The notes under the pieces were generated by a model, which saw only the letters and a list, made by a program, of their open reading frames with translations, was not told where the DNA came from and searched no databases. From Armatimonadota bacterium (GTDB lineage: Bacteria; Armatimonadota; Fimbriimonadia; Fimbriimonadales; Fimbriimonadaceae): a DNA stretch of 64,000 nucleotides. The stretch covers positions 648,644 through 712,643 of the forward strand of contig JAFDWQ010000001.1 in assembly GCA_018268395.1 (NCBI GenBank), in the 5' to 3' direction. Made by a program: the position numbers and the translations under genes. Below are positions 17,701-21,212 of this stretch, one piece after another (positions within the stretch are counted from its first letter, which is position 1; the number at the start of each line of letters is the position of its first letter).

Positions 17701-18016
<316 letters not shown>

Positions 18017-18019
18017 CTT

Positions 18020-19672
18020 TCAGCCGATCTTCGAACGCAAGACCCGGTCTCCGAGCATGGATGCCACTTGCCCGATGATCGGTTCGACCGGACGGTCGTC
18101 CGCATGGCCGATCGGGATCCCCAGACCCCGGAATTCTGACGCCACCCGCTCCGCCACGGGCGACACGCCGGTGCCTGACAAGTCGGTCGTGGCCGCGCGC
18201 CCGTGTCGGACCAGCAGGGCCCGGACCGCGACGGCGAGTTCGATCGCGATCACGCCCCGCGCCACGGCCACCCCTTCATAAGCGGCCCGGCACGCGTTCG
18301 CACCCATGCTCACGAAGTCCTCGGCCTCGTTGCCTGTCGTCACGTTGCCCACGCAATACGGCATCGAACGGGTCTTGAGTTCGCTGACCATGGAAGCGGC
18401 GGTGTATTGCGCGATCATCCAACCGGACTTAACGCCCGATGGATCGTCGACGACCAGGTGACGGGGAAGGCCATAGTTCCGGCGGTCGTTAAGGAGTTTC
18501 GTCACGCGACGCTCCGAAATGCCGGCCACCAGTGCCATCGCGGTCCGAAGCTGGTCGGCGGCGAAGCTGAGGGGCATCCCGTGAAAGTGGGCCCCGGACA
18601 GGACACGCCCGTCGACGACGACAGGATTGTCGGTCACGGAGTTGATCTCGGTCTCCACCACGCGCCGGGCTGCCTCGAGGGCGTCCCAAGCCGTTCCGTG
18701 GACGACGGGGCCGCACCTCAGGCAGTAGTCGTCTTGGACACCGTCGAAGACGCCACCGGCGACCGTACGGGCGCCGATGACGGCGTCCGAGGCCCGGCCG
18801 GCGGAGACCGTCGACTTCGAACCCGAAAGGAACCCGCGGACCCGGTCTGCGCTGGCCACGACGCCCTGGTGGGGCCGCAACGATTGGAGACCGGGGTCGA
18901 AAGCGTCCACGACGCCGCACATCGCTTCGACCGACAAGGCCAAGGCAAGGTCGGCGTGCCACAAAAGGTCGTCGAACGCGGCGACCGTCAACGCGCTCCA
19001 GGCCGACATGAAGGACGTACCGTTGTTCAGGGCCAGACCCTCTTTCGGGCCGAACGTCGACTCGGGCCCCTCGACGCCCGGAAACTCTTCGGACGGGCGA
19101 TAACTCAGAGGCTCGACGCCGTGTCGGTCCAACAGTCCTTGGTCGACAGCCCGCACCTTTCCTTCGACCCACACCGCCCCTCGGCCCATCAACACGAGCG
19201 CAAGGTGCGAAAGAGGAGCCAGATCGCCGCTCGCTCCGACGCTTCCGAAGGTGGGGACGACCGGGACAAGGCCGCTGTTGTACAAGGAGCAGAGGGCGGA
19301 GACGACGCTCGATCGGACGGCCGACGGCCCAAGGGACAGCGTCCTTGCCCGGACGGCCATCGCCGCTCTCACGATGTCCTCTCCGAGAGGCGTGCCGTGG
19401 CCAGAACTGTGGCTGAGGATCAAGTTGTCCTGGACCGTTCCCCGCTGGTCCGATGGGACGGTCGGCCGGTTTCGGTTATCTCCGAACCCCGTGTTGAAAC
19501 CGTACAGTCGGCTGTCGTCGCTCCGAAGCCTTTCAACGACCTGGCGCCGGACGGCGTCGATCCGGGCCCGGTCTTGGGGTTTGACGTCCAACCGGACTTC
19601 AAAGCGCGACGCACGGACGACGTCGTCGACCGTCAGTTTTCGCGAGACGTCGAGATGGGCAGGCTCCGCCAT
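18020..19672 (-). CDS. hutH: Histidine ammonia-lyase
   Basis: Deaminates L-histidine to urocanate, the first step of histidine degradation. The 550-residue protein carries the MIO-forming triad Ala147-Ser148-Gly149 in GSVGASGDLAPLSH, Tyr57 in YGFNTGFG, and NNGTSFMSAW, all conserved in the family. It starts 4 nt after the hisS stop, so the same transcript makes histidyl-tRNA synthetase and a histidine-degrading enzyme. No hutU, hutI or hutG is in the window. A tyrosine ammonia-lyase or aminomutase activity cannot be excluded, but substrate-site residues such as GSK and the context favour histidine. Confidence 0.9.
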   Translation of the reverse strand: MAEPAHLDVSRKLTVDDVVRASRFEVRLDVKPQDRARIDAVRRQVVERLRSDDSRLYGFNTGFGDNRNRPTVPSDQRGTVQDNLILSHSSGHGTPLGEDIVRAAMAVRARTLSLGPSAVRSSVVSALCSLYNSGLVPVVPTFGSVGASGDLAPLSHLALVLMGRGAVWVEGKVRAVDQGLLDRHGVEPLSYRPSEEFPGVEGPESTFGPKEGLALNNGTSFMSAWSALTVAAFDDLLWHADLALALSVEAMCGVVDAFDPGLQSLRPHQGVVASADRVRGFLSGSKSTVSAGRASDAVIGARTVAGGVFDGVQDDYCLRCGPVVHGTAWDALEAARRVVETEINSVTDNPVVVDGRVLSGAHFHGMPLSFAADQLRTAMALVAGISERRVTKLLNDRRNYGLPRHLVVDDPSGVKSGWMIAQYTAASMVSELKTRSMPYCVGNVTTGNEAEDFVSMGANACRAAYEGVAVARGVIAIELAVAVRALLVRHGRAATTDLSGTGVSPVAERVASEFRGLGIPIGHADDRPVEPIIGQVASMLGDRVLRSKIG

Positions 19673-19676
19673 GGGC

Positions 19677-21056
19677 TCAACTCAACGATCGGACGGTCTC
19701 GACGAGGTCGGAAAGAGGCACGGTCGTGTTCTTCGACTGCCGGGCGGCTTCGGGGTCGGCGACATCGGTCTCCGGCGTCACGGACCGCAAGGTGACGTTG
19801 CCTTGTTCTTGCTCGTCCGGACCGAAGAAGACCGCGACCGGAATCGCGTTCCGGGCTGCGAACCGGGTCTGGAGCTTCAAAGTCTCCGCGGGATCGGGAT
19901 AGACCAGCGTCCGGAACCCAGCCTCGCGGAGTTGGCGCGCGACCCTCATCGCACCCGGAAGCCAGTCCGGTTTCGTGATGACCAAGGCGTCGGCGATCCG
20001 CTCCGAGCACTCGGCGGGGACCCGTCCGAGATCCTTCAGGGCCTGCTCGATCCGGTCGAGTCCGAACGACGCTCCGACACAAGGCTGAGCTTCCCCTTCG
20101 ATGAACACCATGTTGTCGTACCGACCGCCACCCGCAAGGCTCCCGTACGTCCACAAAGGACAGTGCGCTTCGAACACAGGCCCAGTGTAGTAGTCCATCC
20201 CACGGGCGAGGCAAGGGTCGAACCGGACGCGGTCGAGGGGCGCACCGGCCTCGACGGCGCATTCCAAGACCGACCGCAGCGCGGCGCAGTCGGCTTCGAC
20301 GGTCGGAAACGCTTTGGCGAACGCCTCCAGGGCCTCGAAAGCGTCCTTCTGACGGTACGGCGTCAGATCGGACAGGAGGGACAAGATCTTGTCCGAAGCT
20401 TTGGCGCCCGCACCTGAAGGATCGACTTTGTCCCCGCCCTCCCGCTCTTTCACGAGCCCCTCCAGGTAGGCCTTGACCGGCGTCGGATCCTGGCTGGACG
20501 GCATCTTGTCGATCGTCCGCACGAACGTGAGTTCGTCGAAATAGGCGTCCGCCAAGAGCGCGTAGACGCCCTTCAGGACACCCCGTGTGTTCACGTAGAC
20601 CACGGTTTCGGGCAACCCGACCGACTCGAAGCCCTTCAGCAACCAGTACACGGTCTCGGCGTCGGCGGTGCCGAGAGGCGCCCCGACAAAGTCAGCGTCG
20701 CACTGGAGGAACTCCCTCCAACGGCCGCGCTCGGGCTTGTCCTGACGGTAAGCGTAGCCGACCTGGTGCCGCGGGAACGGGAGACGGAGCCTGTGCTGCT
20801 CGACGACGCGTCTCAGAGAGACCGTCTGGTCAGGTTTGAGGCAGACGTCGTCGCCGTGCTTGTCCGTGAAGCGGAAGGTCGGCTGGTCGCCGACTCCTCC
20901 CTGTTTGGCGAGGACGTCGACCGGCTCAAGGCCGGGGGTCTCGGACAGGTTGAAGCCGAGTTGGCGGTAGACGGCTTGGAACCGTGCGAGGATCCACTGT
21001 CGAAGAAGGATGTCGTCGGTGAACCTGTCTTGGGTTCCGGGATAGTTCGTCAGCAA
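19677..21056 (-). CDS. hisS: Histidyl-tRNA synthetase
   Basis: A 459-residue class II synthetase that charges tRNA-His. Motif 2 region FPRHQVGYAYRQDKPERGRW, the histidine loop LARGMDYYTGPVFEAH, motif 3 VGASFGLDRI and the GGGRYD element are visible. The C-terminal anticodon-binding domain follows. The start is TTG 21056, supported by GAGGA 5-6 nt upstream. No ATG or GTG lies close to the conserved N-terminus (TNYPGTQDRF). The ribosome binding site sits between the CCA end of tRNA-His and the TTG, so the mRNA begins as the trailer of that tRNA. Whether it belongs to the divergent HisRS group that reads A73 needs alignment. Confidence 0.95.
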   Translation of the reverse strand: MLTNYPGTQDRFTDDILLRQWILARFQAVYRQLGFNLSETPGLEPVDVLAKQGGVGDQPTFRFTDKHGDDVCLKPDQTVSLRRVVEQHRLRLPFPRHQVGYAYRQDKPERGRWREFLQCDADFVGAPLGTADAETVYWLLKGFESVGLPETVVYVNTRGVLKGVYALLADAYFDELTFVRTIDKMPSSQDPTPVKAYLEGLVKEREGGDKVDPSGAGAKASDKILSLLSDLTPYRQKDAFEALEAFAKAFPTVEADCAALRSVLECAVEAGAPLDRVRFDPCLARGMDYYTGPVFEAHCPLWTYGSLAGGGRYDNMVFIEGEAQPCVGASFGLDRIEQALKDLGRVPAECSERIADALVITKPDWLPGAMRVARQLREAGFRTLVYPDPAETLKLQTRFAARNAIPVAVFFGPDEQEQGNVTLRSVTPETDVADPEAARQSKNTTVPLSDLVETVRSLS

Positions 21057-21072
21057 GGGATCCTCTTGAAAT

Positions 21073-21147
21073 TGGTCCCCAGGATGAGAGTCGAACTCAT
21101 GACGTCCGGTTCCACAGACCGGTGTTCTACCACTGAACTACCTGGGG
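21073..21147 (-). tRNA. tRNA-His (GUG) with A73
   Basis: Cloverleaf: acceptor CCCCAGG with CCTGGGG, D stem GTTC/GAAC, anticodon stem CCGGT/ACCGG with loop CUGUGGA (anticodon GUG), T stem ATGAG/CTCAT. The discriminator is A73, followed by encoded CCA (21073-21075). Bacterial tRNA-His normally has C73 paired with an extra G-1. Here the genomic base before position 1 is G, which would face A73. The gene lies 16 nt upstream of hisS, with a TAAATT -10 box at 21179-21184. Confidence 0.93.
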
Positions 21148-21212
21148 CCGAGCCTCCGCCACGTGCGGGCGGTGAGAGAATTTACCCGCTTCGTTGACCT
21201 TGAGCGGGGTCC

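Follow-up and report, generated by a model that had tools for sequence, protein, structure and literature searches.

The window analysed here, the whole stretch of 64,000 nucleotides from an Armatimonadota bacterium of the family Fimbriimonadaceae (assembly GCA_018268395.1, contig JAFDWQ010000001.1, positions 648,644 to 712,643 of the forward strand), carries on its minus strand a compact group of three genes related to histidine. These are, in the order in which they would be read, tRNA-His with the anticodon GUG (21073..21147), followed by a 16-nt spacer (21057..21072) holding the ribosome binding site AGAGGA at 21066-21061; the histidyl-tRNA synthetase (HisRS) gene hisS (19677..21056), encoding 459 amino acids from a TTG start; and, after a further 4 nt, hutH (18020..19672), encoding a divergent histidine ammonia-lyase (HAL) of 550 amino acids from an ATG start. 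An earlier note on this DNA had described the layout, and ARAGORN, Rfam and the open reading frames (ORFs) bear out its coordinates. The genome holding the window (G000) measures 3.7 Mb and is 99.8% complete; the tRNA-His and hutH are the only ones found in it and hisS encodes its sole HisRS.

For comparison we used the four sampled genomes of the same genus, g1 (G000 to G003), and one genome of another genus, g19 (G105, locus L097); these five genomes are referred to below as the clade. The most important feature of the locus, absent from the earlier note, is a changed tRNA identity together with a replaced HisRS. In this lineage, an operon-linked, non-canonical HisRS/tRNA-His identity pair has probably replaced the ordinary bacterial pair altogether.

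Identity elements of the tRNA

Among 31 distinct tRNA-His genes of Armatimonadota, 25 are of the ordinary type, with G-1, G1:C72 and C73. The remaining six carry A73; five of them belong to the clade and one to G092, a genome from another Armatimonadota family. All five clade tRNAs combine A73 with C1:G72, so that U72, which is reported together with A73 as an identity element of Caulobacter tRNA-His, is not present. The base encoded at -1 is G in G000, T in G001, G002 and G003, and C in G105, and the G000 gene encodes CCA. When 291 genomes of the phylum were scanned for A73 followed by an encoded CCA, only the four genus members matched; G105, whose variable loop is 4 nt long, escaped this pattern. 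Neither a second tRNA-His nor one of the ordinary C73 type was found in the five clade genomes, one of the scans for a second gene taking in 30 of the 46 tRNAs of G000.

Homologues of Thg1, the enzyme that adds G-1 to eukaryotic tRNA-His, were found in none of the four genus genomes, and the Methanosarcina acetivorans control was matched. Because no Thg1 was found in the genus, G-1 is presumably not added after transcription, and from the tRNA sequences we infer that it is absent from the mature clade tRNA-His. Elsewhere in the sample, G009 (L099, G009:C11:85981-86322) encodes a Thg1 homologue scoring 101 bits, and its tRNA-His is of the ordinary C73 type. The tRNA-His of G001 and G002 (L032 1405-1480 and L034 1409-1484) depart from the norm in a further way, having G8 and G14 where nearly all tRNAs have U8 and A14. 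We also considered, and rejected, that the clade tRNA arose from another resident tRNA whose anticodon had changed: the best matches (71-78%) fall in the Arg, Met, Ile and His classes and single out no clear parent.

Phylogeny and motif 2 of HisRS

The G000 enzyme matches the HisRS model TIGR00442 with 251 bits, under the cutoff of 286.75, and also matches Pfam tRNA-synt_His and the anticodon-binding domain. Scores against TIGR00442 range from 246 to 265 bits for the clade HisRS and from 420 to 471 for the native HisRS of relatives; the cutoff is passed by the relatives' intact native enzymes and by all 14 control genomes, but not by the clade enzymes. Each clade genome has one HisRS. Identity as HisZ was ruled out, given the presence of the PF03129 anticodon-binding domain and 251 bits with TIGR00442 versus 132 with TIGR00443. 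The readings as a pseudogene or as contamination were ruled out as well: the motifs are intact, the enzyme is the only HisRS, and the genome is nearly complete.

In a 44-sequence tree, with thin sampling outside Armatimonadota (plasmid-borne copies and two Protein Data Bank sequences typed from alignments), the five clade HisRS form a group with 100/100 support outside the native Armatimonadota HisRS. They fall in a branch that also holds Bacteroidota, cyanobacterial and some clostridial/Firmicutes enzymes as well as those of the alphaproteobacterial RRCH clade, to which they are sister with support 96/88. RRCH bacteria are described as having a tRNA-His/HisRS pair with A73 and without G-1 (Ardell and Andersson, 2006; Wang et al., 2007; Yuan et al., 2011, via PMC3937112, PMC9976931 and PMC3875453). 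Forcing the clade HisRS together with the native HisRS lowers the log-likelihood by 66, and the approximately unbiased (AU) test gives p=0.00018; as this result opposes descent from native Armatimonadota HisRS, we regard the enzyme as of a foreign type. Scans for its wider occurrence returned no clade-type HisRS in viral contigs and, in genome contigs, matches only in the genus and in G105, plus one archaeal match at 27%.

The motif-2 loop of the enzyme, RQDKPERGRWREF in G000, is altered at the position that usually reads the discriminator base. Most HisRS have Gln there (ERPQKGR), RRCH enzymes have Gly (NEKPGPGR), and all five clade enzymes have Glu (RQDKPE[KR]GR), the residue being Glu109 in G000. 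Gly occupies this position in six of six aligned RRCH enzymes and in none of the five clade enzymes. An AlphaFold2 model of the HisRS built from five sequences was poor, with a mean predicted local distance difference test (pLDDT) score of 61 and values below 50 over residues 36-130, which include motif 2.

Gene order, transcription and neighbouring genes

The order tRNA-His-hisS-hutH, whose conservation in relatives the earlier note had proposed to check, recurs in all four sampled genus genomes, with spacers of 16, 20, 16 and 16 nt from tRNA to hisS start and of +4, +4, -4 and -1 nt between hisS and hutH. The surroundings of the trio change on both sides in G002, to a P-type ATPase gene upstream and other genes downstream; since the order is kept in this different chromosomal setting, the trio constitutes a conserved unit. 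In G105, tRNA-His lies 14 nt upstream of a hisS whose product is 57% identical, no hutH adjoins the pair, and about 2 kb downstream there starts, as read from the ORFs, a hisG-H-F-A-D operon. Directly behind the G105 pair stands an ORF resembling a repetitive extragenic palindrome (REP)-associated/IS200-like transposase (L097 3450-4052).

Linkage of this kind accompanies the altered tRNA in every case seen in the phylum. A73 tRNA-His lies directly upstream of hisS in all six phylum cases (the five of the clade plus G092), and across 33 tRNA-His loci examined together with flanks of 1.5 kb a HisRS gene is nearby only where the tRNA has A73; no tRNA gene occurs within 1.5 kb at any of 26 native hisS loci. 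The spread is patchy: 5 of 85 family genomes carry the arrangement, made up of the four g1 genomes and, from the roughly 20 of g19, a single one. The trio arrangement is beyond chance.

A scan with the sigma-70 consensus detected neither promoter nor terminator in the tRNA-hisS spacer, as the earlier note's single transcript would require, and the 14-20 nt between tRNA and hisS in the five clade genomes leave no room for a separate hisS promoter. From this layout, tRNA-His and hisS are very likely co-transcribed. The earlier proposal that one transcript covers all three genes is thus strongly supported by spacing for tRNA and hisS, and hutH is coupled to them by spacing in all four genus members. 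Upstream of the tRNA the same scan gave no convincing promoter. A tentative promoter-like -10 element, GGGTAAATT (21179..21184, minus strand), was picked out by eye in the upstream alignment; 31 nt separate it from the 5' end of the tRNA, and the segment between them (21148..21178, minus strand) would form a short 5' leader. The element reads TAAATT in G000 and TACATT or TAAAGT in G001 and G003, there at 33-34 nt; that of G000 does not exceed background, 0.41 of shuffles reaching its score. A hairpin occurs at the site equivalent to the leader in two relatives, G001 (z = -4.0) and G003 (z = -6.8); it is not significant in G000 (z = 0.4) and is absent in G002 and G105. Elsewhere in G000, most tRNA genes (L002-L031) have a -10-like box, GGTANNNT, 9-14 nt before the mature tRNA, which implies very short 5' leaders at those genes.

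The third gene is an outlier among its relatives. HutH of G000 scores 438 and 422 bits against two HAL models, below the cutoff of both, and these are its best matches; it keeps the Ala-Ser-Gly triad of the 4-methylideneimidazole-5-one (MIO) cofactor and the HAL-like SH motif. Identity among the HutH proteins of the genus is 59-64%; against those of order relatives it falls to 33-41%, which lies below the 43-81% found among those relatives themselves. In our reading, HutH is a functional histidine ammonia-lyase, the substrate being a prediction from the protein sequence, and its gene would have entered the operon in the ancestor of the genus; this first enzyme of histidine degradation would thus have been added later and only in this genus. 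The description of the locus as histidine-centred accordingly holds within the genus and fails beyond it, given that hutH does not adjoin the pair in G105, and in G000 the following step of the pathway is encoded by a single hutU some 155 kb from the operon. The hutH of G002 (L062 9673-11335) appears frame-shifted into two overlapping ORFs; the genome is metagenome-assembled and the contig is named with a coverage of 4x, and an assembly error is possible.

Outside the operon, Rfam places rnpB, the class A RNase P RNA, on the plus strand at 17703..18017, convergent with hutH. The two genes end tail to tail 2 nt apart in G000, overlap by 18 nt in G001 and are separated by 10 nt in G003. Read-through from the operon would be antisense to rnpB, whose product is the ribozyme that trims the operon's own tRNA. 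At the edge of the window, a 16S rRNA gene on the minus strand is cut by the window boundary, and positions 1-762 hold its 5' half (Rfam RF00177, a match to model positions 1-789).

Competing explanations and known pairs

A replaced identity pair, which we consider the probable explanation, would operate as follows. RNA polymerase would start a short way ahead of the tRNA gene and read tRNA-His, hisS and, in the genus, hutH. RNase P and 3' processing would then cut out the tRNA, leaving a hisS mRNA whose leader of 14-20 nt contains the ribosome binding site. With A73 opposite an unconstrained -1 base, RNase P is expected to cut at +1 so that no G-1 is kept, and the HisRS, having Glu in the motif-2 loop, by which positions -1 and 73 are read, would recognize A73/C1:G72 and the anticodon instead of G-1:C73. 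Linkage of tRNA and hisS would let the enzyme and its matching tRNA move and be expressed together, allowing the swap to occur without a mismatched intermediate.

Several observations weigh against this explanation. The branch leading to the clade HisRS is long (2.8 changes per site), and the sister relation with RRCH is lost when fewer long branches are included or after G092 is added. A native HisRS, L116 (G103; also L154), has Gly at the motif-2 position even though its tRNA-His has C73 and G-1, so the motif-2 residue is not diagnostic on its own. At the tRNA, G000 does encode a G at -1, one unable to pair with A73, and the T-1 of G001 to G003 could pair with A73. To these may be added the alternative that the resident HisRS and tRNA-His underwent extreme drift together in place, to a new identity rule, without lateral transfer and with incidental linkage. 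For the alphaproteobacterial pair, a convergent origin has been suggested (PMC5370408). The AU test and the likelihood lost when the native HisRS are held as one clade oppose such a change, as do its presence in a single g19 genome and the distance between tRNA-His and hisS in native relatives; we disfavour this account and judge it improbable.

Still more improbable is that the genes are chance neighbours, an ordinary tRNA and an ordinary synthetase transcribed separately. tRNA genes frequently adjoin unrelated genes; against this, the spacer remains tight in five genomes, the order survived relocation in G002, and the type of HisRS changed along with the identity elements. The earlier note had also suggested regulation, in which tRNA maturation or binding of HisRS to the tRNA-like leader could control synthesis; autoregulation of this kind would adjust hisS and hutH to the level of histidine or tRNA-His. 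The proximity of the ribosome binding site to the CCA end (at most 16 nt), the tight spacer kept in five genomes and the strong hairpins that precede the tRNA in two relatives would suit it. The supposed leader, however, is no mimic but the sole functional tRNA-His, which must be cut from most transcripts; the hairpins are not conserved in the other three clade genomes, and hutH does not accompany the pair in G105. We hold autoregulation to be unlikely.

The case of G092 bears on where the pair came from. At this locus (L184 9366-10988), on a 266-kb contig, a tRNA-His with A73, G1.U72, A at -1 and no encoded CCA is followed after 75 nt by the likely ATG of hisS, an RRCH-like gene whose motif 2 reads KPDPGR. 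Next to the pair lies a gene for a DUF1559-like pseudopilin, a protein that we take to be typical of the phylum; this neighbour and the length of the contig would speak against a contaminant. The G092 HisRS groups with RRCH (support 85/72), and in the best tree the three A73 HisRS groups, namely clade, RRCH and G092, come together with a support of only 54/24. It is conceivable, and we put it forward tentatively as less likely than not, that the A73, G-1-less pair arose once and travelled as a linked tRNA-hisS cassette to give the RRCH, clade and G092 pairs. The identity would then spread between phyla by displacing the resident pair, and the alphaproteobacterial pair would be an ancient product whose genes later separated. 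The grouping of the clade HisRS with RRCH, the position of all three groups on one side of a branch in the best trees, and the U72 and A73 of G092, the elements reported for Caulobacter, speak for a single origin. Speaking against it are the low three-way support, the differences between groups at the acceptor end (G72 or U72) and in the motif-2 residue (Glu, Asp or Gly), and the lack of an adjacent tRNA at the six alphaproteobacterial hisS loci examined.

Set beside known systems, the replaced pair of the clade most resembles that of RRCH: the two share A73, the absence of a conserved G-1, a single divergent HisRS in the same major branch, and replacement of the motif-2 Gln, with no Thg1 in the genus. 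They differ in C1:G72 versus U72, in Glu versus Gly, in phylum, and in operon structure, tRNA and hisS being joined in the clade but not at the six alphaproteobacterial loci examined. As U72 and the motif-2 Gly are lacking, we do not class the clade pair as a member of the RRCH type. The statement that no operon of this make-up had been described needs qualifying, since tRNA-Trp(A73)-TrpRS-A operons are known in bacteria of the candidate phyla radiation (CPR) (Mukai et al., 2017, PMC5370408). There too, a non-canonical tRNA with A73 stands in an operon with a divergent, laterally acquired synthetase. The clade operon differs in serving histidine, in lacking the ORF1 found between tRNA and synthetase, and in that its canonical pair is gone, whereas TrpRS-A coexists with one. 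With canonical HisRS/tRNA-His the clade shares a class II HisRS with the LARGMDYYTGPVFE and VGASFGLDR motifs, the anticodon-binding domain and the anticodon GUG; it departs from them in lacking C73 and a conserved G-1, in the changed motif-2 Gln, in scoring below the TIGR00442 cutoff and in the linkage of tRNA to hisS. Eukaryotic tRNA-His, to which Thg1 adds G-1 after RNase P cleavage, is alike in A73 but depends on an enzyme of which G000 to G003 have no homologue.

A literature search for Armatimonadota in combination with tRNA-His or HisRS found nothing, and bacterial loss of the G-1:C73 rule is described as a single event in alphaproteobacteria (PMC3937112). This rule is near universal; the clade and G092 add further bacterial exceptions, whether by transfer or by new origin, and reduce the value of A73 as a unique marker in phylogeny. 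With the ordinary pair gone and the enzyme and tRNA still linked, the clade makes the change of an essential identity rule testable, in that both parts move together, and it could supply genetic-code work with HisRS/tRNA-His pairs that are orthogonal by nature.

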